Virus record (IMG/VR): IMGVR_UViG_3300043420_000984
Span: 27,487-91,486 of that record
Length of the DNA stretch: 64,000 nucleotides
Strand: one strand, 5' to 3'
Source of the DNA: a virus
In this document: piece after piece, positions 42,005-60,000 of the stretch
Numbering within the stretch: the first letter of the stretch is position 1
How the letters are laid out: each line of letters begins with the position of its first letter
Translations under genes and position numbers: made by a program
Notes under the pieces: model-generated
The model's input: the letters and a program-made list of their open reading frames with translations, nothing else
What the model was told of the DNA's origin: nothing
The model's database searches: none

Positions 42005-42059
42005 CGGTCTAGGAACTGGTACAGGGGGTGCCACAGGTGCCCCTACCACCCCTTATAAT
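42004..42059 (+). promoter_or_regulatory. Intergenic cassette with CAGTTCAAAC leader
   Basis: GGTCTAGGAACTGGTACAGG box, a GGGG/CCCC stem, and TATAAT (42054-42059) followed by TACTTCAGTTCAAACAAACC. First appearance of the CAGTTCAAAC leader. Confidence 0.6.
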
Positions 42060-42081
42060 TACTTCAGTTCAAACAAACCAA

Positions 42082-42270
42082 ATGCCTACTGCTTCCGAAG
42101 TCCACATGTTTGACCTTGAGATTGCTCCTGCTCTACGTGATTTCATGAGCAATAACATCTGTGACGCAAACGATTGTGTTGATTGGGTGTGTGAGGTGTT
42201 TGATATCAATGCCTCTGATTTTATCATCGATCGTGTGTGTGATGAGTTTGAAGAATTCTTCGGTGAGTGA
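42082..42270 (+). CDS. Acidic helical protein (62 aa)
   Basis: SEVHMFDLEIAPALRDFMSN then FIIDRVCDEFEEFFGE, with three Cys. Start at 42082, after the leader. Acidic single-gene unit; function unknown. Confidence 0.5.
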   Translation: MPTASEVHMFDLEIAPALRDFMSNNICDANDCVDWVCEVFDINASDFIIDRVCDEFEEFFGE

Positions 42271-42326
42271 CGGTCTGAGAACTGTCACAAGGGGGGTTGC
42301 AAGGACCCCCCACCCCCTGTTATCTT
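42270..42326 (+). promoter_or_regulatory. Intergenic cassette: box, GGGGGG/CCCCCC stem, -10-like hexamer
   Basis: GGTCTGAGAACTGTCACAAGG box, GGGGGG (42291-42296) with CCCCCC (about 42306-42311), then TATCTT (42321-42326) before the ATG at 42350. Confidence 0.55.
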
Positions 42327-42349
42327 ACATTTGTTCCTGAGGAATCCCA

Positions 42350-42535
42350 ATGGCAGTCATTCTCAACGGCGGATGCATTCGTATGGCACTGATGGATCGT
42401 CGCTCCGAATTGATTCGTTGTGCCAGCATCACTAAAGATGCAACATTCGACCAAAAGATTCAAGAACTGGACGATGCGTTAATGCAACTTTGGGATGCAA
42501 AAGAAGTGTTGCTCTCCCCAAGTGTGACGGTCTGA
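42350..42535 (+). CDS. Unknown helical protein (61 aa)
   Basis: MAVILNGGCIRMALMDRRSE then FDQKIQELDDALMQLWDAKE. The C-terminal helix could be a coiled coil. Single-gene unit. Function unknown. Confidence 0.5.
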   Translation: MAVILNGGCIRMALMDRRSELIRCASITKDATFDQKIQELDDALMQLWDAKEVLLSPSVTV

Positions 42536-42582
42536 CAAGTGGCACAGGGGGGATTGACCTTCTCCCTGATCTCTGATACATT
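42526..42582 (+). promoter_or_regulatory. Cassette with TTGACC-17-TACATT promoter
   Basis: GGTCTGACAAGTGGCACAGG box, then TTGACC (42554-42559), 17 bases, TACATT (42577-42582). One of few copies with a recognisable -35. ATG at 42604. Confidence 0.55.
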
Positions 42583-42603
42583 ACATTTGTTGCTGAGGAA
42601 TTC

Positions 42604-42783
42604 ATGACTGGTAATTACTTCAACACCAAGATCATTGAGAACCATGATTCTCACATGTACCTGAACAACAGCATGGCAGAGTGCTATGATTTCTGCCTAG
42701 GTGTTGCTGAGGTGATGGAAAGTGTGCCTGATCAGGCATGGTGGGCGGATCAAAAGAAAGGTCACATCTGCTACGACGTGTGA
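42604..42783 (+). CDS. Unknown acidic protein (59 aa)
   Basis: NYFNTKIIENHDSHMYLNNS then VMESVPDQAWWADQKKGHIC. Single-gene unit between two cassettes. No family recognised. Confidence 0.5.
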   Translation: MTGNYFNTKIIENHDSHMYLNNSMAECYDFCLGVAEVMESVPDQAWWADQKKGHICYDV

Positions 42784-42838
42784 CAGTCTGACAAGTGGCA
42801 CACAGGGGGTTGCAATTGCCCCCGATATCCATCATACT
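42782..42838 (+). promoter_or_regulatory. Intergenic cassette: box, stem and -10
   Basis: CAGTCTGACAAGTGGCACAC box, GGGGG/CCCCC stem, CATACT (42833-42838), before the ATG at 42861. Confidence 0.6.
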
Positions 42839-42860
42839 ACCCAAGTAAACACAAATTCAA

Positions 42861-43136
42861 ATGACTCTCACTGACATTCAAGTTCAAGAGTTGCTGACTG
42901 CTCACTGCTATCGTGTGTTGAGTAGCATGAATGAGGATGATTTGCTGTCCTATGCCATGCAAATGATGTCACAGTCATTTGATAAGAATCCTGGTCAATA
43001 TGATGTTGATTTGGATATGCTTATCGGTGACATTCTGATTGCAGAGGATGAGGATGAAGAATCCGCTGCTGAATTTATCGTGGGCACTGGTATCGATCCT
43101 GAGGTGGCCGATGCCCTGGTTAACCGCCAGGTGTGA
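42861..43136 (+). CDS. Acidic protein (91 aa)
   Basis: VQELLTAHCYRVLSSMNEDD then a strongly acidic stretch (LIAEDEDEESAAEF) and IDPEVADALVNRQV. Helical, acidic; possibly a DNA mimic by charge only. Single-gene unit. Confidence 0.5.
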   Translation: MTLTDIQVQELLTAHCYRVLSSMNEDDLLSYAMQMMSQSFDKNPGQYDVDLDMLIGDILIAEDEDEESAAEFIVGTGIDPEVADALVNRQV

Positions 43137-43190
43137 CACCTTCCAAACTGTCCACCAAACCCCCCACGGTGCCCCTGAGGGTGCCATACT
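43137..43190 (+). promoter_or_regulatory. Intergenic cassette with -10
   Basis: GACACCTTCCAAACTGTCCAC box after the stop, GC-rich stem, CATACT (43185-43190), leader AACAGAGTCAACCAAAGG before the ATG at 43218. Confidence 0.5.
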
Positions 43191-43217
43191 AACAGAGTCA
43201 ACCAAAGGGACACCCCC

Positions 43218-43547
43218 ATGCGTAAGATCGAACGCCAAATGAACGCTGCCATTCGTGACAGCAAGGATTGGAAGTCTGCCAACACCATGGTTACCACTGT
43301 TAATGGTGTTTCCCATGTGTTTCTTCATGGTAACAAGATTGCTGAGGTTGGTGACAACTTCATCGTGCTGATGGATGGTGGTTGGCAATCTAACACCACT
43401 AAATCTCGCCTGAATGCTATCCTGTGTGAGCATGGTTGCCCTGGTGAGTGTGTGTTTCAAGAGAAGTTTCAGTGGTTCGTTAACATGAAGAACGCCAAAG
43501 GTGAGAATATGAAGGTTCCTTTCTTTTCTGGGATGCGTCTAAACTAG
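43218..43547 (+). CDS. Unknown protein (109 aa)
   Basis: KIERQMNAAIRDSKDWKSAN, TVNGVSHVFLHGNKIAEVGD and DGGWQSNTTKSRLNAILCEHG. The 'V.N..S.VFLHGN.IA..G....ML.DGGW.SNTTKSRLNA' pattern is widespread in phages and plasmids as a small protein of unknown function. A strong terminator follows. Confidence 0.6.
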   Translation: MRKIERQMNAAIRDSKDWKSANTMVTTVNGVSHVFLHGNKIAEVGDNFIVLMDGGWQSNTTKSRLNAILCEHGCPGECVFQEKFQWFVNMKNAKGENMKVPFFSGMRLN

Positions 43548-43562
43548 GAAATTCCTAAAATT

Positions 43563-43607
43563 TAGAATTCTCAATAAAATGAAATTATTGAGAATTCTAT
43601 TTTTTTA
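43563..43607 (+). terminator. Strong intrinsic terminator
   Basis: TAGAATTCTCAATAA (43563-43577) pairs perfectly over 15 bp with TTATTGAGAATTCTA (43585-43599) around a 7-base loop, followed by a run of T to 43607. The strongest terminator in the window. Confidence 0.9.
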
Positions 43608-43676
43608 TAAAATAAGAAAGTTATAACTTATAATATCTTTATTATAATAACTAACAAACAATTGAGGTTTATTCTA

Positions 43677-43787
43677 ATGACCATTCAAGAAATGTATCAA
43701 GAGTTAAAAGAACAAACCGAAGAAGATAATATAGATCTATACGATGATTGTTATATCTTCGATATAGAATATACTACTCTGGAGTAG
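43677..43787 (+). CDS. Small acidic AT-rich protein (36 aa)
   Basis: TIQEMYQELKEQTEEDNIDL then YIFDIEYTTLE. TGAGG lies 11 bases upstream of the ATG. It lies between the strong terminator and a run of palindromes; its last codons are part of the first palindrome. AT-rich unlike its neighbours. Confidence 0.45.
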   Translation: MTIQEMYQELKEQTEEDNIDLYDDCYIFDIEYTTLE

Positions 43788-43858
43788 TATATTATACTAT
43801 ACTAGTACTAGTATAGTATAAGTCAAGTATAACTGTGCCAGTTTGAGAGCTGGCACAG
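43771..43858. repeat. Three consecutive perfect hairpins
   Basis: ATACTACTC/GAGTAGTAT (43771-43790, loop TG). A perfect 30-bp palindrome with half TTATACTATACTAGT (43792-43821). ACTGTGCCAG/CTGGCACAGT (about 43831-43858). The last contains the CTGGCACAG box of the intergenic cassettes together with its complement. No gene explains them. Confidence 0.75.
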
Positions 43859-43875
43859 TAGGCCAGAAGCGCCCT

Positions 43876-43957
43876 GGATCCCTCCCTCGCCTCCCTCTAG
43901 TCTAGAGGTCGCCGCGGCCAATTCAAGGGGGTTGCAGACGGTTTGAGAGGTGGCACA
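43876..43957. repeat. GC-rich repeat block A with GCCGCGGCC core
   Basis: Starts GGATCCCTCCCTC, includes CTAGAGG and GCCGCGGCC, continues CAAGGGGGTTG and ends at the GTGGCACA box. Diverged copy of block B at 45186-45270, in the same order. Confidence 0.7.
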
Positions 43958-43987
43958 GAGATGGTCGCAAAGGTGCTGACCCGTGCT

Positions 43988-43993
43988 TATAAT
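43988..43993 (+). promoter_or_regulatory. -10 element (CCGTGCTTATAAT type)
   Basis: TATAAT in the context GACCCGTGC, followed by GATCAAGACAACC leader; ATG at 44018. Confidence 0.6.
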
Positions 43994-44017
43994 GATCAAG
44001 ACAACCACATTCACCTG

Positions 44018-44251
44018 ATGACTGACACTTTCTTCAAGACCTTCGCTAACACTTTGGTCTACAACATCGCCACGATTGTTGCTATCATCGTGGCAGTAGT
44101 TAGCTATACTTACCGTGCTGCCCGAGTTTGGTATAATGAAGGCGGTCGTGAGTTTCTGATCACTAACGCCTGTAAGTGCATGGCATTTGTTAACAAAATG
44201 GCAGAACAGGCATACTACCGTCTGGAGGATGCTGAGACCGCCGCGGCCTAG
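44018..44251 (+). CDS. Small membrane protein (77 aa)
   Basis: NTLVYNIATIVAIIVAVVSY is one membrane helix, followed by a basic YRAARVWYN. The rest has two Cys and ends ETAAA, encoded by a GCCGCGGCC element overlapping the stop. Start at 44018 since longer frames would translate the promoter. Confidence 0.5.
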   Translation: MTDTFFKTFANTLVYNIATIVAIIVAVVSYTYRAARVWYNEGGREFLITNACKCMAFVNKMAEQAYYRLEDAETAAA

Positions 44252-44309
44252 TACAGTCTGACAAGTGGCACAGGGTCAGTCGCAACCTGCCTCACCCTGT
44301 GCCTATAAT
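44252..44309 (+). promoter_or_regulatory. Cassette box and -10
   Basis: CAGTCTGACAAGTGGCACAGG box, then CCTGTGCC-TATAAT (44304-44309) and leader GACCTCAGTTCAATTC before the ATG at 44332. Confidence 0.65.
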
Positions 44310-44331
44310 GACCTCAGTTCAATTCACTTCA

Positions 44332-44487
44332 ATGGACCGCCTCGAAATGCTCATGTCGCGAGAACAGTTAATGGAGGATATTGATTGTATCATCAGCGGT
44401 TATTTTCAGGGCATCGATGAAGATGAACTGAATGAAGTTACCCGCATCCTGTGTGATGCTGTCTGTGCCAACTTCCCCGCTAACTGA
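44332..44487 (+). CDS. Acidic helical protein (51 aa)
   Basis: DRLEMLMSREQLMEDIDCII then FQGIDEDELNEVTRILCDAV: acidic and helical. Two bases separate it from the next gene. Start after the leader; the upstream in-frame ATG lies in the -10 element. Confidence 0.5.
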   Translation: MDRLEMLMSREQLMEDIDCIISGYFQGIDEDELNEVTRILCDAVCANFPAN

Positions 44488-44489
44488 TC

Positions 44490-44792
44490 ATGTACCGCAC
44501 ACTTTCTGAACTTCGTGATAGTGTCAATCAGATGATTGATGCTCAAGGTGAGAACGCTCCCTGTGCTGCGTTTGTATTCACTCAGCACGATGTATTTGAG
44601 TTCAATGAGGAAACCAATCAGGATGATTATTTCTCCTCTCTTTTCACTCAAGATGTGCTCGCTGATGTAGGTGGTTCTTCCTACATCTACGAACAGGTAG
44701 GTGAGATGATTGATGATACAATCCGTCTCCGTAAGAATCTGACTGTCTATTCTGGAAAGATGTGGCAGCATAATGATGAGGATGACAACTGA
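44490..44792 (+). CDS. Acidic protein (100 aa)
   Basis: YRTLSELRDSVNQMIDAQGE is a helix of the type found in small phage/plasmid proteins with 'AAFVFTQHDVFEF'. Acidic C-terminus (HNDEDDN). Its last base starts the next ATG. No function known. Confidence 0.5.
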   Translation: MYRTLSELRDSVNQMIDAQGENAPCAAFVFTQHDVFEFNEETNQDDYFSSLFTQDVLADVGGSSYIYEQVGEMIDDTIRLRKNLTVYSGKMWQHNDEDDN

Positions 44793-44965
44793 TGAACCGC
44801 ACTGAACTCCAGGATCAACTCATTCAGACAATTCTGGATGGTATGGACATGAAAACCCTCGAACAGTATGCTTACGACATGCTGGTGAATTGCTTTGAGG
44901 GTTATACTGATGAAGAACTGATCACAGAGGTTAGTGATCATTACCCTGAACTTCTGGAGGACTGA
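44792..44965 (+). CDS. Acidic helical protein (57 aa)
   Basis: RTELQDQLIQTILDGMDMKT, LEQYAYDMLVNCFEGYTDEE. A helical small protein similar in style to the gene at 42861. Coupled on both sides (TGATG). Confidence 0.5.
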   Translation: MNRTELQDQLIQTILDGMDMKTLEQYAYDMLVNCFEGYTDEELITEVSDHYPELLED

Positions 44966-45144
44966 TGTTAGCTCTACTTAGCATGGGCGTTGATAGTTTC
45001 AAAGACGCACTTTACTGGTGGCGTGAGAATGAAATGCCTGCGTTCTGGATTGAACTGAACAGCGGCTATTATCAGCTCAATCCTAAACTCTACGCTGCAG
45101 CGATGCTAGGCAACAACTATGCAGACGTAGTTTATACAAACTAG
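44965..45144 (+). CDS. Unknown protein (59 aa)
   Basis: LALLSMGVDSFKDALYWWRE then FWIELNSGYYQLNPKLYAAA. Starts with TGATG overlap. Its stop is directly followed by a GCGGCCGCGGCC element. Confidence 0.5.
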   Translation: MLALLSMGVDSFKDALYWWRENEMPAFWIELNSGYYQLNPKLYAAAMLGNNYADVVYTN

Positions 45145-45185
45145 GCGGCCGCGGCCAGTACGTTCATACTACTGGCCCTAGAGGG

Positions 45186-45270
45186 GGATCCCGCCCTCTT
45201 GCCTCCCTCCAGCATAGAGGCGGCCGCGGCCGATTGCAAGGGGGTTGTGGGCAGTTCGACTGGTGGCACA
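45186..45270. repeat. GC-rich repeat block B with GGCCGCGGCC core
   Basis: GGATCCCGCCCTC, GCCTCCCTC, ATAGAGG, CGGCCGCGGCC, CAAGGGGGTTG, GGTGGCACA: same elements and order as block A. A second GGCCGCGGCC and an 8-bp stem GGCCAGTA/TACTGGCC (45153-45177) lie just upstream. Confidence 0.7.
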
Positions 45271-45299
45271 CTGGTGGTTGTGGTGGGGTCGCTCCACCC

Positions 45300-45305
45300 T
45301 ATACT
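45300..45305 (+). promoter_or_regulatory. -10 element
   Basis: TATACT followed by AAGGGAGTCAAACGC leader, 25 bases before the ATG at 45331. Confidence 0.55.
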
Positions 45306-45330
45306 AAGGGAGTCAAACGCACCGAGACCC

Positions 45331-45516
45331 ATGTGGGATGAGATCCAAGACATGCCTGGTGAGATCTTCGACATCTCAGACGAGACCCGCGACGAGATGG
45401 CCGCGGCCTGGGCAGACGATGCCGAGGAGGAGCCAGGGTGGGATCTGATGGGATGGGACGATGATCAGGCCCTGGAGGAGTTCTCCCTGGAGTGCGCCTT
45501 CGGCCCTGAGGAGTGA
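45331..45516 (+). CDS. Very acidic protein (61 aa)
   Basis: DEIQDMPGEIFDISDETRDE then AAAWADDAEEEPGWDL: about a third Asp/Glu. The EMAAAWAD segment is encoded by a GGCCGCGGCC element inside the gene. DNA mimicry is possible by charge; no fold evidence. Confidence 0.5.
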   Translation: MWDEIQDMPGEIFDISDETRDEMAAAWADDAEEEPGWDLMGWDDDQALEEFSLECAFGPEE

Positions 45517-45572
45517 CAGTCTAAGGGGTGGCACACCTGCTGCCCCTTCCCTCTCCACCCTGTGCCTATAAT
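45516..45572 (+). promoter_or_regulatory. Cassette box and -10 before ArdA-like gene 1
   Basis: CAGTCTAAGGGGTGGCACACC box, CACCCTGTGCC-TATAAT (45567-45572), leader GATCAAGTCAACC; ATG at 45598. Confidence 0.6.
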
Positions 45573-45597
45573 GATCAAGTCAACCACAAACGACACC

Positions 45598-46032
45598 ATG
45601 ACCGTGACCCTCACCTCTAACTACCGCGAGATGCTCGCTGCTGCTACTGTTGAGAAGATCGATGAACTGATCGATGAGACTTACTGCCTCGATGACATGC
45701 TGGTGTTCATCGATGAGTATAACGAACGTGCCTTTGTAGAAGTCTATGAAGAGTATGTGCGTTGTGGTGAAGCGATTGGGTATGAAGCAGTAGATGCCCT
45801 TGCTAGTGAGTCTGGCATCGATTACATCGATTGCTGTGATGAACGCTACCAGGGTTGCTATCAGTCTACCGCTGATTTTGCAGAGGAGTTTCATACCTCT
45901 ATCGGCAACCATGTTCCTGAGGGTATTGAAGTCGATTGGGAAGCGACTTGGGATCGTAATCTCTACTACGATTTCACCGCATGTAACGATGGCACGACTT
46001 ACTGCCCCATCCACATCTTCCGCGATATGTGA
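45598..46032 (+). CDS. ArdA-like antirestriction protein, copy 1 (144 aa)
   Basis: ArdA proteins are acidic dimers that mimic DNA and block type I restriction enzymes. DYIDCCDERYQGCYQSTADF followed by AEEFHTS matches the central ArdA motif (DERYxGxYDSxxDFAEEF), and VDWEATWDRNLYYDFTA the C-terminal (DxExxxRDLxxxDY) motif. The N-terminus is shorter than in plasmid ArdA (about 165 aa). A paralogue lies at 47527. A GGGGGC/GCCCCC terminator follows. Activity against type I enzymes is inferred. Confidence 0.7.
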   Translation: MTVTLTSNYREMLAAATVEKIDELIDETYCLDDMLVFIDEYNERAFVEVYEEYVRCGEAIGYEAVDALASESGIDYIDCCDERYQGCYQSTADFAEEFHTSIGNHVPEGIEVDWEATWDRNLYYDFTACNDGTTYCPIHIFRDM

Positions 46033-46064
46033 TCACAACTGATCACCACTAAGTAAACACTACA

Positions 46065-46090
46065 GGGGGGCAACTCTGCCCCCTTTTTTT
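46065..46090 (+). terminator. Intrinsic terminator after ArdA-like copy 1
   Basis: GGGGGGC and GCCCCC around an AACTCT loop, followed by seven T. Confidence 0.8.
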
Positions 46091-46190
46091 ATTGTCTCAT
46101 TTCAACCTGCCTCACCTGCCCGTCGTCAAGGCATCGGGGACAGTAGACGAGCTGGCACTCGGTCTCCTGCGATCGGTCCTCACCCGTGCC

Positions 46191-46196
46191 TATAAT
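46191..46196 (+). promoter_or_regulatory. -10 element, CACCCGTGCC-TATAAT class
   Basis: Preceded by CTCACCCGTGCC and followed by GACTGCAGTTCAGACAAGC; ATG at 46219. Confidence 0.65.
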
Positions 46197-46218
46197 GACT
46201 GCAGTTCAGACAAGCACC

Positions 46219-46422
46219 ATGCACAAGATCAACACCCTCGGCAGCGACGCCATCAAGCGAATGACCGTCGATCCCTTGAAGGGCAGCGTTCGCGTTTGCT
46301 TCTGGAGCGGCGGTAAGGTCTACCGCTTCGATGGCGTCTCCCGTCGTGCCATCCTCTCCCTGATGGCATGGCAGGATCGCAGCTTGGGCCAGTGGGTGAA
46401 CCGTCACTGCCTCGCTCGCTGA
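46219..46422 (+). CDS. KTSC-domain protein, copy 1 (67 aa)
   Basis: GSVRVCFWSGGKVYRFDGVS then RRAIL and GQWVNRHCLAR: the KTSC strand pair with 'YRF.GVS' and a C-terminal 'G.W.NRH'. KTSC proteins are widespread and of unknown function. It closely matches the gene at 48769, which is in a different order of neighbours. GC-rich codons. Confidence 0.65.
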   Translation: MHKINTLGSDAIKRMTVDPLKGSVRVCFWSGGKVYRFDGVSRRAILSLMAWQDRSLGQWVNRHCLAR

Positions 46423-46438
46423 CCCCATCCCGACCCTG

Positions 46439-46456
46439 TAGACTAACCTCAGTTCA
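46439..46456 (+). promoter_or_regulatory. -10 (TAGACT) with CAGTTCAAACG leader
   Basis: CCCTGTAGACT then AACCTCAGTTCAAACGACC; ATG at 46467. No Shine-Dalgarno site is visible in the leader. Confidence 0.65.
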
Positions 46457-46466
46457 AACGACCACG

Positions 46467-46655
46467 ATGAACCTGACCGAATCGACCGCCCTCGCCATCG
46501 CCATCGTTCACGCCAACTGCCCCCATGCCGCTGATGGGCACGTTCGCTCCCTCCATCAGACCACTGAGGGTGCCGAGATGCTGCGCCTGATCGTTCGGGA
46601 TGATCTGGCGGGTGCTGCCGACATCATCGCCAACGCCCTGATGGGCAATCTCTGA
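46467..46655 (+). CDS. Unknown protein (62 aa)
   Basis: TESTALAIAIVHANCPHAAD then GAADIIANALMGNL. Ala-rich, helical. Single-gene unit. GC-rich codons like its neighbours. Function unknown. Confidence 0.5.
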   Translation: MNLTESTALAIAIVHANCPHAADGHVRSLHQTTEGAEMLRLIVRDDLAGAADIIANALMGNL

Positions 46656-46656
46656 A

Positions 46657-46701
46657 GTGGCACAAGAGGGGGCAGAGATGCCCCCATCCTGGCTCTAGAC
46701 T
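46657..46701 (+). promoter_or_regulatory. Terminator stem and -10 (TAGACT)
   Basis: AGTGGCACAAG box, GGGGGCA/TGCCCCC stem, then TAGACT (46696-46701) and leader CAACAGCAAACGACCC; ATG at 46723. Confidence 0.6.
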
Positions 46702-46722
46702 TCTCTCAACAGCAAACGACCC

Positions 46723-46851
46723 ATGAAAACCGCTCTCCTCCTCCCAACCGCCTTCGCTGCCCTGATCATCGGCACCCTGTTCGCAGGGCACGTCGCTAGC
46801 GAGTTTCACGGGCAGCGAGCAGCAGAGGCACACTTCGCTGCCACTCGCTGA
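46723..46851 (+). CDS. Small exported or membrane protein, copy 1 (42 aa)
   Basis: MKTALLLPTAFAALIIGTLF then AGHVASEFHGQRAAEAHF: a signal anchor with a small soluble tail. Nearly identical to the gene at 49464, so duplicated within the array. Function unknown. Confidence 0.55.
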   Translation: MKTALLLPTAFAALIIGTLFAGHVASEFHGQRAAEAHFAATR

Positions 46852-46890
46852 ACCGTCCACAGGGGGACCGAGATCCCCCTTCCCTGCCTG

Positions 46891-46908
46891 TAGACTAACC
46901 TCAGTTCA
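46891..46908 (+). promoter_or_regulatory. -10 (TAGACT) with CAGTTCAAACG leader
   Basis: CCTGCCTGTAGACT, then AACCTCAGTTCAAACGAAACG; preceded by a GGGGG/CCCCC stem. ATG at 46922. Confidence 0.65.
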
Positions 46909-46921
46909 AACGAAACGACCC

Positions 46922-47107
46922 ATGATCAACCGCGCTCGCGTCATCGCTTCCCTGCTCGCCATGTTCAAGGCAGAGCACGGCAGCACCCCTCAGTGGTTGC
47001 TCGAACTCCACCACCGCTCTGATGATGAAGTGCTGGTGGCACGTCTCGCCAACTGGCGCACCAACTATCCCAACCACTATCAGCGCCACGGTCTCTATGT
47101 GATGTGA
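46922..47107 (+). CDS. Unknown protein, copy 1 of a pair (61 aa)
   Basis: RVIASLLAMFKAEHGSTPQW, LLELHHRSDDEVLVARLANW, then GLYVM. Clearly paralogous to the gene at 48491 (AIASLCAMFNDYHGN, VLELHHRSTDEE, GTYVM). Helical, GC-rich. Function unknown. Confidence 0.6.
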   Translation: MINRARVIASLLAMFKAEHGSTPQWLLELHHRSDDEVLVARLANWRTNYPNHYQRHGLYVM

Positions 47108-47117
47108 CGATCAGCAG

Positions 47118-47173
47118 GGTGGCCGCGGCCGCCCTGATCTGCCCTCACCCGTGCCTATAATGACCTCAGTTCA
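47118..47173 (+). promoter_or_regulatory. GGCCGCGGCC element and -10 (TATAAT)
   Basis: GGTGGCCGCGGCCGCC, then CACCCGTGCC-TATAAT (47156-47161) and GACCTCAGTTCAAACG; ATG at 47187. Confidence 0.65.
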
Positions 47174-47186
47174 AACGAAACGAACC

Positions 47187-47459
47187 ATGACCGCTTCCAC
47201 CCTCTCCACCTACAACGGTTGGGCAACCTACGAAACCTGGAACGCTGCCCTGTGGATCCAGAACGACGAGTTCCTCTACAACACCGCTCGGGCATGTGTG
47301 GAGTTCTGCGGCGATAACGAGACCCCATGGGACAAGTTCCAACGGTGCATGATGGACGGTCAGATCGGACGGATGCTCGGTCAGACCCGTGACGGCGTGG
47401 CATGGGATAGCGTCGCCATCGATGCAGACGAGATGAACGCCATGATGGTCGATCTCTGA
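47187..47459 (+). CDS. Conserved 'YNGWxxYETWN' protein (90 aa)
   Basis: TYNGWATYETWNAALWIQND is a strongly conserved opening of a small protein family of phages and plasmids (DUF7249-like by recall) that often lies near antirestriction genes, as here next to ArdA-like copy 2. Role unknown. The start follows the leader; the longer frame translates the promoter. Confidence 0.65.
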   Translation: MTASTLSTYNGWATYETWNAALWIQNDEFLYNTARACVEFCGDNETPWDKFQRCMMDGQIGRMLGQTRDGVAWDSVAIDADEMNAMMVDL

Positions 47460-47498
47460 ACCGACCACTAGGGGGCGCGACCTGCCCCCACCCGTGCC

Positions 47499-47520
47499 TA
47501 TAATGACCTCAGTTCAAACG
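47499..47520 (+). promoter_or_regulatory. -10 (TATAAT) with CAGTTCAAACG leader before ArdA-like copy 2
   Basis: CACCCGTGCC-TATAAT (47499-47504) then GACCTCAGTTCAAACGAACCCC; ATG at 47527, a leader of about 15 bases. Confidence 0.65.
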
Positions 47521-47526
47521 AACCCC

Positions 47527-47967
47527 ATGACCGTGACCCTCACTTCCAACTATCGTGACTGCCTGGATGCTCACACTGTAGATTTCATTGATGAGCGTAT
47601 CGATGAGAACTATGCTCTGGACGACATGCTGGAGTTCATCGACACTCACAACGAAACTGATTTCTGCAACTATTACGAGGAGTATGTGCGTTGTGGTGAA
47701 GCGATCGGGTACGAGGCAGTTGATGCTCTGATTGAAGAGATGGGCGACATGTCCTACATCGATTGCTGCGATGAGCGTTACCAGGGACACTATGATGATG
47801 AGGCAGAGTTTGCAGAGGAGTTCATGACTAGCACGATGGGTTATGAAATCCCTGCTGCAATCGTTGTCGATTGGGAGGCAACTTGGGACGCTAATCTGCG
47901 TTATGATTTCACTGCCTGCCGCGATAAGACTTCCTACCGTCCCTGCCACATCTTCGCTGACAACTGA
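47527..47967 (+). CDS. ArdA-like antirestriction protein, copy 2 (146 aa)
   Basis: The same motifs as the copy at 45598: YIDCCDERYQGHYDDEAEF then AEEF, and VVDWEATWDANLRYDFTA. The N-termini are near identical (MTVTLTSNYR) and the middle is diverged, indicating an older duplication with both genes kept. Acidic throughout. Single-gene unit with its own promoter and terminator. Confidence 0.7.
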   Translation: MTVTLTSNYRDCLDAHTVDFIDERIDENYALDDMLEFIDTHNETDFCNYYEEYVRCGEAIGYEAVDALIEEMGDMSYIDCCDERYQGHYDDEAEFAEEFMTSTMGYEIPAAIVVDWEATWDANLRYDFTACRDKTSYRPCHIFADN

Positions 47968-47974
47968 ATCAAAC

Positions 47975-48005
47975 GGGGGCAACTCTGCCCCCTATTCTTT
48001 ACACT
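47975..48005 (+). terminator. Terminator stem, then TACACT -10
   Basis: GGGGGC/GCCCCC around AACTCT (47975-47992), the same stem as after ArdA-like copy 1 but with a weaker T run; TACACT follows at 48000-48005 for the gene at 48021. Confidence 0.6.
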
Positions 48006-48020
48006 AACTGATCGCCACTG

Positions 48021-48170
48021 ATGAACACTGCCTCGCTGATTCGCCTCGCCCTAGTTGCAGGCATCCTGATGATGTTCTCTCAAACTGTAGGATCGGTGTT
48101 TGCCCTTGCCCAGACCCTAGACCGTGTGACAGCAGACAAGGTGGCACAGATGGCATCGCTGAGCGACTGA
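48021..48170 (+). CDS. Small membrane or exported protein (49 aa)
   Basis: ASLIRLALVAGILMMFSQTV is a signal or membrane helix, then a short helix (LAQTLDRVTADKVAQM). Similar in layout to the MKTA proteins but not the same sequence. Function unknown. Confidence 0.5.
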   Translation: MNTASLIRLALVAGILMMFSQTVGSVFALAQTLDRVTADKVAQMASLSD

Positions 48171-48179
48171 CCCTGCCTG

Positions 48180-48197
48180 TAGAATGACCTCAGTTCA
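48180..48197 (+). promoter_or_regulatory. -10 (TAGAAT) with CAGTTCAAACG leader
   Basis: CCTGCCTGTAGAATGACCTC, directly after the upstream stop; ATG at 48208. Confidence 0.65.
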
Positions 48198-48207
48198 AAC
48201 GACCGAC

Positions 48208-48441
48208 ATGACCAGCACCGCCTTCGCCTTCTACCGTGTGGAACTCGACAAGGCAGACGGTAGCACCGCTGTAGAGTATCGCAAGCGTCGCAAGGCAACC
48301 ACCGCTAAGGGCATGTCCCGCCAGCATGACAACGTGGTGAATGCCGTTATTGAGGAACTGCGCTATTATCGCATCGAGGGATGGAAGCGCCTCACCGTGA
48401 CCCGTGTGCCTGCTGCAGAGGTGGCACAAGCGACTCGCTAA
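48208..48441 (+). CDS. Unknown protein (77 aa)
   Basis: STAFAFYRVELDKADGSTAV then HDNVVNAVIEELRYYRIEGW: basic and mixed alpha/beta. Start chosen after the leader. Single-gene unit; no family recognised. Confidence 0.5.
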   Translation: MTSTAFAFYRVELDKADGSTAVEYRKRRKATTAKGMSRQHDNVVNAVIEELRYYRIEGWKRLTVTRVPAAEVAQATR

Positions 48442-48458
48442 GGGGTCGCCCCTGCCTC

Positions 48459-48476
48459 TAGACTAACCTCAGTTCA
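48459..48476 (+). promoter_or_regulatory. -10 (TAGACT) with CAGTTCAAACG leader
   Basis: CCCCTGCCTCTAGACTAACC then CTCAGTTCAAACGACACG; ATG at 48491. Confidence 0.65.
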
Positions 48477-48490
48477 AACGACACGAGACC

Positions 48491-48688
48491 ATGACCAGCA
48501 CTCAACGCACCCGTGCCATCGCTTCCCTCTGTGCCATGTTCAATGATTACCATGGCAACGACATCACCCCTGCCTGGGTTCTGGAACTGCATCATCGCAG
48601 CACTGATGAGGAGATCGCTCAGCGCCTCAGCACCTGGCGTGAGAACTATCCCCAGCAGTTCGCTCGCTTCGGCACCTATGTGATGTGA
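48491..48688 (+). CDS. Unknown protein, copy 2 of a pair (65 aa)
   Basis: RAIASLCAMFNDYHGND and VLELHHRSTDEEIAQRLSTW align with the gene at 46922. A GGCCGCGGC element follows its stop, as it also follows the stop of copy 1, so gene and element were duplicated together. Confidence 0.6.
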   Translation: MTSTQRTRAIASLCAMFNDYHGNDITPAWVLELHHRSTDEEIAQRLSTWRENYPQQFARFGTYVM

Positions 48689-48699
48689 CAATCGACGGG

Positions 48700-48756
48700 G
48701 TGGCCGCGGCGACCCGCTGACCGCCACCCTACCCTCTAGACTGACCTCAGTTCAAA
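48700..48756 (+). promoter_or_regulatory. GGCCGCGGC element, -10 (TAGACT) and leader
   Basis: GGTGGCCGCGGCGACC, then TAGACT (48737-48742) and GACCTCAGTTCAAACGACACG; ATG at 48769. Confidence 0.65.
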
Positions 48757-48768
48757 CGACACGAGACC

Positions 48769-48972
48769 ATGCTCCCCATCGACTCCAAATACAGCAGCGC
48801 CGCTCGCAAGGTGACCGCCAACCCCTTCACTGGCAGCGTTCGCGTTCGCTTCAAGTCTGGCAGCAAGGAGTATCGCTTCACTGGCGTCTCCCGTCGTGCC
48901 ATCATCAGCGCCGCGATCATCCCCCCTCTCAGCGTGGGACAGTGGATCAACCGTCACTGCTGGTCGCTCTGA
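48769..48972 (+). CDS. KTSC-domain protein, copy 2 (67 aa)
   Basis: TGSVRVRFKSGSKEYRFTGV then SRRAIIS and VGQWINRHCWSL, closely matching the KTSC protein at 46219. Basic, GC-rich. Function unknown. Confidence 0.65.
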   Translation: MLPIDSKYSSAARKVTANPFTGSVRVRFKSGSKEYRFTGVSRRAIISAAIIPPLSVGQWINRHCWSL

Positions 48973-48988
48973 CCGCCAACCCTGCCTG

Positions 48989-49006
48989 TAGAATGACCTC
49001 AGTTCA
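48989..49006 (+). promoter_or_regulatory. -10 (TAGAAT) with CAGTTCAAACG leader
   Basis: CCCTGCCTGTAGAAT then GACCTCAGTTCAAACGACC; ATG at 49020. Confidence 0.65.
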
Positions 49007-49019
49007 AACGACCAAGACC

Positions 49020-49190
49020 ATGACCCGTTACAACCCCAACGCCTACGAAGCCCAGATCCTCGCCAAGGGTCGGGACCTGCCCACCGCTCCTGCCCCCAAG
49101 GCACAGTACCCCCGTACTATCGGGCACCGTACTTTCCAGACTGAGGCAGAATACCAGGAGGCGCTGGCAGACTTCCTGAATGGCATGTGA
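49020..49190 (+). CDS. Small Pro/Tyr-rich protein (56 aa)
   Basis: TRYNPNAYEAQILAKGRDLP then YPRTIGHRTFQTEAEYQEAL. Basic, probably partly unfolded. Single-gene unit; no family recognised. Confidence 0.45.
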   Translation: MTRYNPNAYEAQILAKGRDLPTAPAPKAQYPRTIGHRTFQTEAEYQEALADFLNGM

Positions 49191-49239
49191 CGGTGGAGGG
49201 GGTGTCCCCTGATGCCCCTTTCCCCCCCTCACCCGTGCC

Positions 49240-49257
49240 TATAATGACCTCAGTTCA
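49240..49257 (+). promoter_or_regulatory. -10 (TATAAT) with CAGTTCAAACG leader
   Basis: CACCCGTGCC-TATAAT (49240-49245), then GACCTCAGTTCAAACGACC; ATG at 49271. Confidence 0.65.
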
Positions 49258-49270
49258 AACGACCAAGACC

Positions 49271-49423
49271 ATGACCAAGACCAAACTCGACATGTCTGCC
49301 ATCCTCGCCCGCTACACCCAGCAGGTCATCGCTGAGGACCAGCGCTGTCGGGCAATCCGTGAGGGTCGCCTCCCTGCCGCTCAGGGACAGTCGGGCACCT
49401 GGAACATCAGCGATCGGGACTGA
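49271..49423 (+). CDS. Small basic protein (50 aa)
   Basis: TKTKLDMSAILARYTQQVIA then RCRAIREGRLPAAQGQSGTW. Helical and basic. Single-gene unit. Function unknown. Confidence 0.45.
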   Translation: MTKTKLDMSAILARYTQQVIAEDQRCRAIREGRLPAAQGQSGTWNISDRD

Positions 49424-49436
49424 CCCGACCTGCCTG

Positions 49437-49454
49437 TAGAATTCTCTCAGTTCA
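49437..49454 (+). promoter_or_regulatory. -10 (TAGAAT) with CAGTTCAGAC leader
   Basis: CCTGCCTGTAGAATTCTCTC then AGTTCAGACAACCCC; ATG at 49464. Confidence 0.6.
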
Positions 49455-49463
49455 GACAACCCC

Positions 49464-49595
49464 ATGAAAACCGCCTTCCTCCTTCCCGCCGCCTTCGCTG
49501 CCCTGATCATCGGCACCCTGTTCGCTGGGCACGTCGCCAGCGAGATGCACACCCAGCGGGCAGTAGAGGCACACCTGCAGCAGACCGCCAACTGA
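49464..49595 (+). CDS. Small exported or membrane protein, copy 2 (43 aa)
   Basis: MKTAFLLPAAFAALIIGTLF then AGHVASEMHTQRAVEAHL, nearly identical to the gene at 46723. A duplicated single-gene module. Function unknown. Confidence 0.55.
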   Translation: MKTAFLLPAAFAALIIGTLFAGHVASEMHTQRAVEAHLQQTAN

Positions 49596-49828: not shown

Positions 49829-49834
49829 TACACT
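49829..49834 (+). promoter_or_regulatory. -10 (TACACT) for a nearly leaderless gene
   Basis: TACACT lies only 5 bases before the ATG at 49840, so transcription would begin at or very near the start codon. Confidence 0.5.
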
Positions 49835-49839
49835 AACTG

Positions 49840-50013
49840 ATGACAGACAAGCAACTAAAGCGCCTGGCAGCAGCGAACGATTGGACCCTCGCCCGTAGGG
49901 GCAAGCACGAGATCTGGAGACGTGGCAGGGTGGAGCAGATCGCCATACCCTACCGACCCAACCACCAGACCGCCCGCCTCATCGGCCGACGCCTAGAGGC
50001 AGCGCCTGCCTGA
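49840..50013 (+). CDS. HicA-like toxin-fold protein (57 aa), no HicB neighbour
   Basis: TDKQLKRLAAANDWTLARRG then KHEIWRRG and AIPYRPNHQTARLIGRRLE follow HicA. That family has a dsRBD-like fold with a conserved Gly-x-His before an aromatic strand (GKHEIWRR here). HicA proteins are mRNA interferases held by HicB; no HicB is visible. A solo phage form could degrade host mRNA or be inactive. GC-rich. The assignment rests on length and pattern. Confidence 0.5.
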   Translation: MTDKQLKRLAAANDWTLARRGKHEIWRRGRVEQIAIPYRPNHQTARLIGRRLEAAPA

Positions 50014-54077: not shown

Positions 54078-54081
54078 TTAA

Positions 54082-57000
54082 ATGGCTGCTAAGACCAAAA
54101 GAATTTCTACTCTTGTTGAGTCGCAACTCCCAGAGTTTATTTCTACTGAATATGAGCTTTTCGGAAAGTTCCTTCAGAAGTATTATGAAGCTCAGGAAGT
54201 ACAAGGCGGTCCATTGGATATTATAAGTAATATCCAAAAATATTCTGATATTGATTTTTACGAAAAAAATTTACTAAAGCAAAATGATGAACTTGCTGTA
54301 GGAATAACAGCAACTGATAATATTATTGTACTAAACGATGCATCTTCTTTCCCAGAAAAGAATGGATATGTCAGAATTCAAGATGAGATCATCTTTTATG
54401 CTTACAGAACAGACACGACATTAGAAGAATGTTCTAGGGGAGTTAGTGGAAATACCACTCTAGGAGATTTATACTCAGAGTCTGATTTTAAGAGTACTTC
54501 AGCAGCACCACATGTTGCTGGACATAAAGTACATAATGTAAGTAATCTATTCTTGTATGCTTTTATAAAAAGTTTCGAGAATCAATATCTAGGATCTTTT
54601 CCAGAAAAATATTTGAAGGGTGATGTAGATAAAAGAACCCTCATCAAAAATATTCAAAAGTTTTACAAGACAAAGGGAACTGATAGCTCTATTAAGTTTA
54701 TCTTTAACACCATTGTTGCTAAAGATATTAACAATAAACCATCTGTATATAATCCAAAGGACTTTACATATAAGTCATCTAACTCAGATTGGGTCAATAT
54801 TTACGCATTAAAAGTAAAAGTTATTTCTGGAGATCCAAAAAATCTTATTGGATTGAAGATTGTTCAAAACCCAACTGATGAATATGATTATGCTTCTGCT
54901 ACTGTAGATAATGTATTTCCTGATGGAACAATTGATGGTGAAAGAATTTGGAACATTGTATTAGCACCAGAGACTGTTAATGGTTCATTTGCTATTTCAA
55001 CAAAAACTAGATTAGAAAAAGATTTATCTTCTACTGAAACTACAGGAGGAAGAGTTGATGCTTTCTCTACAATAGGGTGGGAACCTGTTGGTGAAATTTT
55101 AATTGAAGAAGAAGTAATAACATTTGAAGATAAAAATGCAACTCAGTTTTACATTAAAAACAGGGGTCCAGTTCCAGTAGAGCACAAACAAGGATCTTCG
55201 ATTTATAAACCAGTTATCATTGACGGATCTGGGATCAAATTATTGACTTTAGGAGTCGTTTATAATTTACTACCATCCACAAAAAACCCATATTCGTCCC
55301 CAGGAGATAAAATTCAAGTTTCCAATCCAGGATTCGAAACTTCAAATCAAAAAATAGTAAAAACTGGAACTAATAATCCAAGATGGATATTAAATCAAGG
55401 AAATCCTATTATTTCCCCAACAAATACTTCTGTACAGAATTCTCTCAATCAAGTCAAGTCTGACGTTTCGGGAATCTTTGAAGATGATCAGTATTATTAT
55501 ATTGCTAGTTCTAGTTACCCATCTTACAAAATTCTTGATGGTTCTACGGTAACACAGAATGTACAAGATCAAAAACTACTTAAAATTATTAGAAAAGAAT
55601 CAACAAGAACAACAGAAATTTATCAGTCTTCTAAGAGAGATGTTGGTATTCTTGTAAATGGTGTTCCTATTTACGGATTTAGAGATACAGAAAGTATCAG
55701 ATATGGAAAATTAGAAGAGATTCGAGTTAATACTCGTGGTAGAGGTTATAACAATCCACCGTTTGTTCTTATCAATGGACAACCAAATAAAGCTAGGTCA
55801 TTTTTATCTGGACAAGTTTTAGACAGAATTGTAGTTACTACGAATGAAATCTTCTTGAAGGAACCAGATATAACGGTAACTTCTGGATTTGGAGCAGAAG
55901 TTAGAGCAGTCGTAACTAAAGGAGAAATTACTAGTCTTGTTATTGATGATCCTGGAAAGTTTTATTCTTCTCCACCATTAGTTCAAATTAGAGATAATGC
56001 AGGTCAAGGAAGATTTGCAAATTTCACTGCAGTAGTCGATATCAATGGTAAAATTATTGATTTCATCAAAGTATCTGGTGGAAATTTTTATACACAAGAA
56101 AATGTTGTTGTTGATATAATTCCAGTTGGATCTGATGCGACTGCTATTCCCGTATTGAAAGAATGGAATTTCAATAGGTTTGAAAAATACAAAAATAATT
56201 TGGATGATCAGTATGGTTTCTTGTTTGAGAACTATAATAGACTTTTAGAATATGGATATGGACATGTTGGAAATCCAAAAGCTCTTAGAGTTTTATTAAA
56301 TGACAATTTATCAAATTCTGGTGTTGCGCCACAAAATCCATCACATTCGCCAGTAATCGGTTTTGCTTATGATGGAAATCCAATTTATGGACCATACGGA
56401 TATGAGAATGGTCTTGATTCTTCTTCACCGATTGTCAGGATGACATCTAGTTATGTTTTGAATGCAAATAGACAAGATAGACAAGATAGACCACCAATAT
56501 CTAGGTATCCTATTGGATCTTTTGTGAATGACTACACATATAAGCATAGTAGTGGATCACTAGATAAAAATAATGGAAGGTTTTGCGTTACACCAGATTA
56601 TCCAGAAGGAGTTTATGCATATTTTTTAACTATTGATTCTTCGCAAAACCCAGTATTCCCATATTTTATTGGTGAGAATTTTTATTCATTGCCTGTAGAT
56701 AGTAACTATAATTCAAATATCAATCAAAATGATTTACCAAAAAATGCCAAGAGATTTTTCGTTCCTGGTATGCCTGGAAATGGTGGTGGTTTAATTGCAA
56801 AAATTAATGAAGTAAGATCTGGGTCAGTTGATAGAATTTCCATTGATTCATCCTCAGATAATTTTTCTGTCAATTCTAAAATTTATTTTGATAATAAAGG
56901 AACTGAAGGTTTTGATGTTGAGTCAATTGTCTCATCTGTAAAAGGAAAAAATGTAAATTACTTAGAAAGCAAAGAAGATAAAGTAGTAAAACTCACTACA

Positions 57001-60000
57001 ATCCAAAATGCTTACTTATTTACTGATGATGTTTTGAGACAACCTGCTTCTGGAGCGTCTGGTCAAATTGTCGGAACCGTTCAGAATGATAATGAAATTG
57101 TTTTAAGAAACGTCATAGGAACTTTCAACAATACAGGAACATTTTCTGCTGATATTAAAACTTTCATAATACTACTAGATCAAGATAGTTCTTATACAGA
57201 AGGAGCGGTTTTAAGTCTCACTGATGGACTAAATCCACCAATTGCTACAGCAGAAGTTCTGGAAAGTACTGGTCGACAAAACACAGTTACTATAAAAGTT
57301 CTCACTGGAGTGTGGATTGTAGATGATGATTATTTCTTGCAGTCTAGCAACTTGTTTAATACTGCTGGATCTAAAATTATTACATTAACTTCACTTAGTG
57401 ATAACTTAGAGCCATTTGAAGTCAATCAGAATGTTGCTTTAATAGAAACAGATTCTCCTCATGGTCTTGGTGTTGGTGATAGAGTAACAGTTTCTATCTC
57501 CCCAGATGATTCCACAAAGACAAAAAATTATTATATCAGAAAAAGACTTTATCAATCTGTTAAATTTAAAGAACCATCAAACTCAACAGTAATAGACTAT
57601 ACTGGAATTGGAAGATTTCAAATACTGAATGGTGGTGCTGATTACACTCCTGGTGTTTATACTAACGTTCCTCTTACTGGAGGTTCTGGATCAGGAGCAA
57701 CAGCAACTATAACAGTATCAGATGAAGGTGTAGTTTCACAATTACAAATTCAAGATGGTGGATCAAATTATGAAAAAGCAGATTTTGTCGGTGTAGATGA
57801 TCAGGAGTTACAAAGATCTGGCGCTTCATTAAGTTCTTCTAGATTGACACTTTATATCGATCATGTCGGAGTGTCTTTGGAATCCTCAGTATTTCCATTA
57901 AAAACTACTATAGGTTTTGCTGAAGGTGATCTGGTAAAGGTTGGTCAAGAGATTATAGAGATAACATCTATTAATGGTGATAGAATATCTGTTCTAAGGG
58001 GTATTGAAAATACTATTCCCGTAGATCATTTTGATGGACAATCAGTAACTCTATACAAACCAAAGTATAATTTTCCAGATAACTACAGAATTTCCACCAA
58101 TTCTGGATCTGGATTCATTCAATCATATAATCCAGATACACAAGAGGCGGTGATTGTATATGAATACTCAACTCAATTATTGACAGCGGAAAAAATTGAA
58201 CTTAGGACAACATTTTTTGATGTTAGTTCTCCACAAAGCAGATTGGTTAGAATTCAGGAAATACAAGATATAAACTTCAAATTTGAATTTTCTGAAGATA
58301 ATGTAGAATTTACACCAAACCCAACAATAAACATTCAAGAGTATTATAGGTATCTTTTTGATACTTCACATCCATCTTTAACTGGAGTTTATTTTGATTT
58401 GAGTCCAAGTAAAAGTTTTAATTTGGAAACCACAGAAAAAATAGAATCTACTATTTTACCTGGAAATCCTGGATCTTTCACAGACCTAAAGTTTGGTTTT
58501 GGAGCTCGATTAGCGAATAATAACTACAATAATAGAGTTGGTACAGATTTTGCTAATTTTTACTATTTCGACAGAAATGGTATAGTTAATTCTGATGGAT
58601 CTTACTTAAGAATTATTGACGATCCTTTACAGGGAACAAAAAGAGTTTCCTACGTAACTCCAAATCGTTTTGTTTATCATTTAAGTTCTGTACCTCTATG
58701 GGATGGATCTGGAGATATCTCATATACCACAAATGGTCAATTTGCTGTTGGTAAAATTAATTCCGTCAATATTACAAATTTTGGATCCAACTATAAGAAA
58801 GTTCCAGTAATTTTAGGTTGTTCTCCAAATAGCAATTTTGAAGGAAAAGCAAATGTTATATTTGATGAAAATATCAAAAAAATAGTTGGAGTCGAAATAA
58901 CTGAACTTGGATCCAATTATGTCAATCCAAAAGTAATAATTACAGATGGTGATGGTGTTGATGCAAGTTTTAAAGTAGTTGCTAGAGGAGGAAAGTTATT
59001 TTCTATTACAGTAGAAAATCCTGGTAGAGGATATACATATGCACCGAAAATAAAAATTATTGAAGGTGAATTAAAAGCATATGTCGAGAGTGACACTATT
59101 GGCATACCTCTGAGCGTAACTATTGTTAGAAATGGAGGATCTTTCCATTTAGATAAAACAGTTTCTTCAAATTACACAACAAATTATACAGTTTCTCTAA
59201 AAGACTTTACTGGAGATTTTCAGAGTGGTGAAGTTGTAACGCAAGAAATTAATAATGTAGAAGTCTTGAGAGCAAGAGTCTCAGAATGGAGAATTGGCAG
59301 TAACCTGTTAAAACTAGAAAATATCCAGGGAACAATTAGAGAAGGACTATTAATCAAAGGGAGAATATCAAGAACTGAAGGAACAGTAAAGTCTATATTT
59401 GTTACCAATTTTACAAATAATATTACAAGCTTCTATGATAATCTTGGATATTATACATCAGACAGAGGAAGACTTGGCGTTTCAAATCAGAGATTGACAG
59501 ATAGCTTTTTCTATCAAGATTATTCATATGTTGTAAAATCAAAAACTCCAATAGAACAATGGAGAGATTTAATTAAATCCACCACACACCCATCTGGATT
59601 TAAATTATTTGGTCAAGTTGATGTAGAATCTTCTGGCAATAACGTAATGCCAGAAGTAAAACCAGATCAGAAAGCAAGTCGTTTCTCGATTATCCAACTC
59701 TGGGATCCAGAAAAAAATAAGATAACTGTTGAAAATACTAGAAGAACGGTTACACAGACTGTACAAAAAGTAGAGAATACTAGAGTTAGAAAAGGAATTG
59801 GATCTGCCGCAACATCAGAGTTTAACTTCAATGAAACAAGGGCATTTACATTTACTCTTGCTGCTCCTTTAGATGGATATTATGATTCTGATGGAAGACT
59901 TCAGGGAACAACAGTTTTCCAAGTTTTAGATGATAATGGAACACCATTCAATCCAATTAGTGCGGAAAGTTTGATTGTTACTTTAGATGGCATTTTGCAA

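Follow-up and report, generated by a model that had tools for sequence, protein, structure and literature searches.

A repeated promoter-leader probably marks self-contained cassettes of small genes in S-PM2-like cyanophages

PeSLs, the mobile cassettes of T4-like phages that Arbiol 2010 and Comeau 2014 are said to describe, reportedly place an early promoter and a stem-loop between small variable genes. Here we describe a similar arrangement, an array of small genes that each follow a repeated promoter-leader (a -10 box, a 3-nt spacer and the 14-mer CTCAGTTCAAACGA or a variant of it), in IMG/VR virus record IMGVR_UViG_3300043420_000984; the window, the 64,000-nt stretch that was analysed, covers positions 27487 to 91486 of this 91.5-kb record. 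As in PeSLs, which we compare by description, a repeated promoter, often with a hairpin ahead of it, stands between small variable genes and is linked to the shuffling of a variable region. Two other systems are close. The start-associated sequences (SAS/ESAS) of cluster K mycobacteriophages (PMC3203893) are likewise asymmetric repeats found before many unrelated small genes, mostly in one orientation, and conserved among phages. Halovirus HF2 has intergenic repeats that carry promoters (PMC8707807); we compare it, too, by description, and it differs in being an archaeal virus with an archaeal promoter type and repeats of 29 to 58 bp.

For cyanophage S-PM2, whose ORFanage originally comprised ORFs (open reading frames) 002 to 078 (PMC2984593), PeSL-mediated shuffling was considered and judged unlikely because a high PeSL density was not seen (PMC4503421). 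Both accounts deal with the orphan genes and a single early promoter and do not mention the repeated promoter-leader, and a literature text search found neither the 14-mer nor the 12-mer string CAGTTCAAACGA in phage papers. The S-PM2 array, at 22.0 to 24.6 kb, lies downstream of and outside the stretch whose promoter and stem-loops PMC4503421 lists.

The array probably consists of self-contained gene cassettes, each with its own promoter-leader, in a variable region of an S-PM2-like T4-type cyanophage. A weight matrix built from the -10, the 3-nt spacer and CTCAGTTCAAACGA found 13 sites on the + strand of the window (starting at 42054, 44304, 46191, 46439, 46891, 47156, 47499, 48180, 48459, 48737, 48989, 49240 and 49437) and none on the - strand, against 0 to 0.4 in Markov-random sequence. 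The original prediction, made from the letters of this stretch, had claimed at least 13 such units, and both their number and their coordinates were right. At each site an ATG opens an ORF of 43 to 146 aa at 21 to 26 nt past the end of the -10. The leader is diverged at 4 of the 13 sites (42054, 44304, 46191 and 49437); those at 42054 and 44304 belong to outlying units, and the dense array spans 46.19 to 49.60 kb. Exact CAGTTCAAACGA occurs in nine copies, all on the + strand between 46450 and 49262, and exact CTCAGTTCAAACGA nine times forward and never in reverse in the whole record, with no match for a reversed control. The unit at 46696, the 14th, is headed by a sister leader, CTCAACAGCAAACGA. 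The -10 is TATAAT at six matrix sites and TAGAAT or TAGACT at seven; the two classes had been said to alternate, which they do not, their order being T T T G G T T G G G G T G. A search with the 12-mer alone and three mismatches was dropped as uninformative, its count being at chance level (75 matches, 66.8 expected). The features of the array are as follows; all promoter-leaders are matrix sites except the sister one at 46696.

42054..42081, +, promoter-leader TATAAT tac TTCAGTTCAAACAA, diverged outlier
42082..42270, +, 62-aa ORF of unit 1, no Pfam matches
44304..44331, +, promoter-leader TATAAT gac CTCAGTTCAATTCA, diverged outlier
44332..44487, +, 51-aa ORF of unit 2
46066..46090, +, intrinsic terminator GGGGGCAACTCTGCCCCCTTTTTTT after the first ArdA-like gene, just ahead of the dense array (RNA minimum free energy -15.9 kcal/mol, z -2.5)
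46191..46218, +, promoter-leader TATAAT gac TGCAGTTCAGACAA
46219..46422, +, 67-aa protein, phrog_7365, weakly KTSC-like, paralogue of 48769-48972
46439..46466, +, promoter-leader TAGACT aac CTCAGTTCAAACGA
46467..46655, +, 62-aa protein, leader family 15 (at least 10 members)
46668..46685, +, hairpin GGGGGCAGAGATGCCCCC between units, read off the sequence
46696..46722, +, sister promoter-leader TAGACT tct CTCAACAGCAAACGA
46723..46851, +, 42-aa protein with a hydrophobic segment, 88% DNA identity over 114 nt to 49461-49574, which has another leader allele
46861..46880, +, hairpin AGGGGGACCGAGATCCCCCT ahead of the next -10
46891..46921, +, promoter-leader TAGACT aac CTCAGTTCAAACGA
46922..47107, +, 61-aa protein, paralogue of 48491-48688
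47156..47186, +, promoter-leader TATAAT gac CTCAGTTCAAACGA
47187..47459, +, 90-aa DUF7249 protein (Pfam E 4.7e-35), largest leader family with at least 42 distinct members
47471..47489, +, hairpin GGGGGCGCGACCTGCCCCC
47499..47526, +, promoter-leader TATAAT gac CTCAGTTCAAACGA
47527..47967, +, 146-aa ArdA-like anti-restriction protein (Pfam ArdA E 0.003, below cut-off), related to 45598-46032
48180..48207, +, promoter-leader TAGAAT gac CTCAGTTCAAACGA
48208..48441, +, 77-aa protein, phrog_5495, family median dN/dS (ratio of nonsynonymous to synonymous substitution rates) 0.10
48459..48490, +, promoter-leader TAGACT aac CTCAGTTCAAACGA
48491..48688, +, 65-aa protein, paralogue of 46922-47107
48737..48768, +, promoter-leader TAGACT gac CTCAGTTCAAACGA
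48769..48972, +, 67-aa protein, phrog_7365, paralogue of 46219-46422
48989..49019, +, promoter-leader TAGAAT gac CTCAGTTCAAACGA
49020..49190, +, 56-aa protein, phrog_649
49240..49270, +, promoter-leader TATAAT gac CTCAGTTCAAACGA
49271..49423, +, 50-aa protein, phrog_14769
49437..49463, +, promoter-leader TAGAAT tct CTCAGTTCAGACAA
49464..49595, +, 43-aa protein, paralogue of 46723-46851

Scans of IMG/VR for the 14-mer and for TATACTGATCTCAGTTCAA, whose contig and family counts are lower bounds, found the same promoter-leader before at least 438 distinct small genes of at least 80 protein families (median 63 aa) from at least 125 sources, with up to 16 units on one locus in the largest array. 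The original prediction had proposed looking in related cyanophages for the leader followed by different genes; this is what the scans revealed, and the cassette idea is thereby supported. The genes bear a coding signature (median dN/dS 0.36 over 31 families). Four window genes have internal copies, three recognized by DNA repeat and the ArdA-like pair by profile; the ArdA-like sister gene at 45598-46032 matches the anti-restriction family phrog_36653 (E 9e-66). The array families phrog_7365, 5495, 649 and 14769 are without assigned function. A Pfam scan of 31 family representatives returned five Pfam families, with one representative each and only two of them strong, and a PADLOC scan of family representatives gave one weak match. 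It is a reasonable guess that the array genes act in early host takeover or anti-defence.

The leader keeps its distance from the -10 rather than from the start codon. Among the 14-mer matches listed from IMG/VR, where the -10 was not part of the search pattern, TANNNT stood exactly 3 nt upstream in 66 of the 76 followed by an ORF and in 1 of the 40 without one, and the distance from leader to ATG varied from 4 to 12 nt. Orthologues of two cassette proteins were also gathered by protein similarity, and thus without selection for the leader. A -10 was located 18 to 33 nt before the ATG in 58 of these 60 upstream regions (12% by chance). Alignment on the -10 gave these regions 12.5 bits of information, alignment on the ATG 8.5 bits. 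Conservation peaked at CA in positions 6-7 after the -10, the usual location of the transcription start, and then in a CAAAC-like tract. That the leader stands at a constant distance from the -10, and at a varying one from the ATG, points to an element of the transcription start and 5′ untranslated region (5′ UTR); we infer that the motif comprises a promoter core, probably of the host-sigma70 type, the start site and the first-transcribed bases. The SAS (GGGATAGGAGCCC), in contrast, is tied to the translation start and has a purine-rich stretch, whereas the cyanophage leader is not placed on the start codon or a ribosome site, as shown by the two alignments and by Shine-Dalgarno (SD) matches at shuffle level. 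Genome alone and gene alone each explained the promoter class only weakly. Leader-like matches in 257 Gb of genome contigs, for which the pattern is too short, were apparently due to chance: they fell in unrelated bacteria, with no cyanobacteria among the 37 genomes probed for D1.

None of the 12 window units scored has an SD-like match, and such matches occur in 8.4% of the 438 leaders, 6.8% of shuffled ones and 31% of window core ORFs. The lack of an SD in the original prediction is therefore borne out. From the predicted start the leaders are on average 18 nt long and consist of 36% A, 36% C, 15.5% G and 13% T; together with 30 nt of the gene they fold with a mean of -3.7 kcal/mol, against -10.4 for gene-internal windows and -5.3 for shuffled sequences. 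The second codon is ACC in 171 of the 438 units. These data fit SD-less initiation on an open leader, short of proof. The further suggestion of ribosome recruitment at a set place by the leader itself, or of a phage factor bound to it, is weakened: the leader holds its distance to the -10 and varies in that to the ATG, and a generic unstructured CA-rich leader suffices for SD-less translation.

Just beyond the array, a HicA-like gene (49840-50013; weak Pfam HicA match, below cut-off) has a TACACT box (49829-49840) that ends 5 nt before the ATG, and in its apparent S-H9-1 counterpart (L350, ~2584-2599) the box lies 6 nt before the ATG. The mRNA of this gene is a candidate leaderless transcript.

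After the conserved CA, the leader has several alleles (GTTC at 41 of 134 sites, TACC at 22, TCAA at 15, ACAA at 13 and TCGA at 9), of which CTCAGTTCAAACGA is the commonest. Alleles are similar within one locus (0.374 versus 0.142; 0/1000 permutations). The statement that the leader is more conserved than the genes holds between unrelated genes within one phage; across phages, orthologues have leaders of varying alleles, and only 6 of 49 DUF7249 upstream regions carry CTCAGTTC. Alternatively, the leader could be more than an open 5′ UTR: as an operator in the DNA or an element in the RNA, it would be recognised by a protein or small RNA, of phage or host origin, through which all cassettes are switched jointly. 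Such a specific signal could explain why the exact 12-mer is kept at many unrelated genes in many phages and why the first-transcribed bases seem more constrained than a generic CA-rich tract requires. We consider it improbable, as these several alleles serve one gene, dyad symmetry is not notable and the exact 14-mer has no antisense copy in the record. We also give little credence to a functionless leader, with one promoter copy spread through each genome by recent duplication and gene conversion and the remainder due to shared ancestry. Homogeneity of alleles within a locus and the paralogous cassette pairs of the window would agree with it, as would the 88% identical paralogues 46723 and 49464 with their differing alleles. 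However, the fixed -10 spacing, the CA start, CAAAC and the absence of an SD and of a fold are kept across phages and alleles in orthologues gathered without selection; as drift would blur this segment, its conservation counts against a lack of function.

The window encodes, among others, a short tail fibre, baseplate wedge gp6, an RNA ligase and a helicase, and its blastn matches are limited to Synechococcus and Prochlorococcus phages, with S-PM2 at the top; gene content and matches together identify a T4-type (S-PM2-like) cyanomyovirus. ARAGORN found no tRNA genes in the window. In 12 other large leader-bearing records, S-PM2 included, the array forms an island upstream of gp25-gp6, co-oriented with them and about 3 to 17 kb upstream of gp6 on the same strand; the seven units found in S-PM2 lie directly before gp25-gp6. 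Two records (G004 and G006) have single extra leader sites further off from gp6, and in S-H9-1 the only leader copy lies some 20 kb upstream. No exact leader match occurs in S-WAM2, S-RIM32 or S-SZBM1, whose orthologues carry sister leaders. In S-PM2 (AJ630128), the leader-bearing DUF7249 gene at 23.7-24.1 kb (L127, ~10826-11120) is unannotated and the minus-strand ORF S-PM2p074 is annotated over the site; further array units are also unannotated, and S-PM2p071 may be a similar case. On the other side of gp6, no closed + strand ORF longer than 60 aa is listed for 54078-64000, which fits one giant ORF running past the window end; S-PM2 has a 9.1-kb coding sequence at the equivalent place after gp6.

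Cassette order varies between loci, with 128 kinds of neighbour pairs among 302 adjacencies and ten pairs seen in both orders. Gaps from stop codon to -10 are bimodal, mostly 5 to 26 or 34 to 54 nt, and hairpins occur in 76% of the long gaps (17% when shuffled) and 1.5% of the short ones. Gap length tracks the upstream gene (0.253 versus a baseline of 0.038) and the -10 allele tracks the downstream gene (0.262 versus 0.180; 0/500 permutations); with hairpin and gap tied to the gene before them and the -10 to the gene after it, the moving unit is best drawn as promoter-leader-gene-hairpin. The permutation figures of the pair statistics are optimistic, since only identical copies were removed and related phages were counted as independent. 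A stem-loop spanning the stop codon was tried as a general part and dropped (8%, 4% when shuffled). Near-identical terminators follow both ArdA-like genes (46066-46090 and 47975-47999), so the terminator was seemingly copied together with the gene. Elsewhere in the window, a gene-end element (GTGAC-GTCTGA-AACTGGCACA, then a GGGG...CCCC hairpin) recurs at 23943-24000, 18588-18630 and 42267-42820, and the copies at 18.6 and 23.9 kb finish in a T run, as intrinsic terminators do.

Among 25 well-flanked single-locus indels, 10 coincide with a -10-like site, where 16% would be expected (P=0.002); the inserts are mostly 187 to 267 nt long, the size of one cassette. Between loci L081 and L221, whose flanks are 98% identical, the difference is a 218-nt cassette with a leader repeat of 35 nt at its ends; L181 and L043 (97%) differ by 531 nt with a 44-nt repeat, and L114 and L198 (94-95%) by 265 nt with a 37-nt repeat. 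Single-cassette indels, constant orientation and duplicated cassettes would also be expected if the leader were the site of a dedicated recombinase, an integron-like device. This is extremely improbable, although no search for a recombinase or integrase gene was made, given that the exchange point is not constant (the overlaps measure 0 to 79 nt, and many indels are found at other places) and that the leader sites lack symmetry. Nor does each cassette end in an attC-like folded site: the leader is unstructured, and the hairpins are unlike between units and missing from short gaps.

Several observations weigh against independent cassettes exchanged through their leaders. The -35 is weak, with at least 4 of 6 matches in 22% of cases versus 11%. 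About one third of the junctions have only 3 to 26 nt from stop to -10 and no hairpin, which makes read-through transcripts likely alongside monocistronic ones, and hairpins mostly lack a T run where a promoter comes next. As 15 of the 25 indels lie away from promoters, other routes are also at work. Any cassette-precise gain or loss is automatically bounded by repeats, so that the indels show exchange at cassette ends and leave recombination through the leader unproven. The hairpin-less third of gaps (26 nt or less), the shared strand and the tight packing could even indicate one or a few operons read from upstream, in which the repeats are internal translation-start motifs only, like those of cluster K mycobacteriophages. 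We regard such operons as highly improbable because the motif is anchored on a -10, nearly always at the fixed 3-nt gap, and not on the ATG, because an SD is lacking, and because hairpins close most long gaps and a strong terminator stands ahead of the array.

The arrays also stand out in composition. Their mean GC content is 57.8%, versus 39.7% for the rest of the same loci, and the array is richer in all 45 contigs with at least five units; in the window the values are 58.3% and 37.6%. GC at third codon positions reaches 74% in the window array genes, versus 27% in window core genes, and the units of other phages have 71%. The cause may be a host-like choice of codons suited to immediate translation, or a separate gene pool. 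A broader proposal is that a pan-cyanophage pool of compositionally distinct, immediate-early plug-in genes moves via a standard socket and that the leader itself is a specific signal which gives these genes preference during the first minutes of infection; it is tentative and on balance unlikely.

For the self-contained cassettes, we infer from the sequence the start site, the early timing, the ribosome mechanism and recombination, rather than selection alone, as the cause of the repeats. Each cassette would combine a promoter of the host-sigma70 type, its -10 accompanied by a weak -35 or none, with a fixed segment around the transcription start, a short, unstructured, CA-rich 5′ UTR that lacks an SD, and one small gene, often closed by a terminator-like hairpin. 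Transcription would start at the A of CAG within CTCAGTTCAAACGA, 15 to 33 nt before the ATG, and the host RNA polymerase would make a separate transcript of each gene, probably as soon as the DNA has entered. Cyanomyoviruses have no alt, modA, modB, motA or asi homologues, lacking the genes with which T4 modifies host RNA polymerase, and their early genes are thought to be read by unmodified host RNA polymerase (PMC2984593); such published statements on cyanophage early transcription, together with the host-type -10, suggest co-expression in early infection. Ribosomes would then initiate on the open leader without an SD. Because all cassettes share their first ~30-40 bp, phages could gain, lose, duplicate and reorder cassettes with expression kept, much as PeSLs reportedly allow in other T4-like phages. 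The promoter-leader thus resembles a socket into which early-acting genes can be plugged and swapped.

Set beside PeSLs, the cyanophage arrays have, by sequence, a sigma70-type promoter repeated between small genes (13 window sites; 58 of 60 orthologue upstream regions). A candidate counterpart of the stem-loop is the hairpin of long gaps (76%, against 1.5% of short ones), mostly without a T run. They occupy a hyperplastic region with shuffling points, as seen in the neighbour changes, the 10 of 25 junctions at promoters and the island upstream of gp25-gp6. They differ in that the repeated block extends beyond the start site into the SD-less CA-rich leader, that the hairpin, tied to the upstream gene, may be missing, and that the hosts are cyanobacterial. 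The arrangement works like PeSL cassettes; its cyanophage form is new and has an SD-less leader and a base composition of its own. If true, cyanophages would have a definite way of exchanging early genes rapidly, one earlier set aside for the S-PM2 ORFanage. It also offers a sequence tag for locating some 80 families of tiny, mostly uncharacterised proteins, one of them ArdA-like and most without a known domain, and a natural system for studying SD-less translation in cyanobacteria. The composition gap, 58% versus 40% GC in 45 of 45 contigs, is directly testable.

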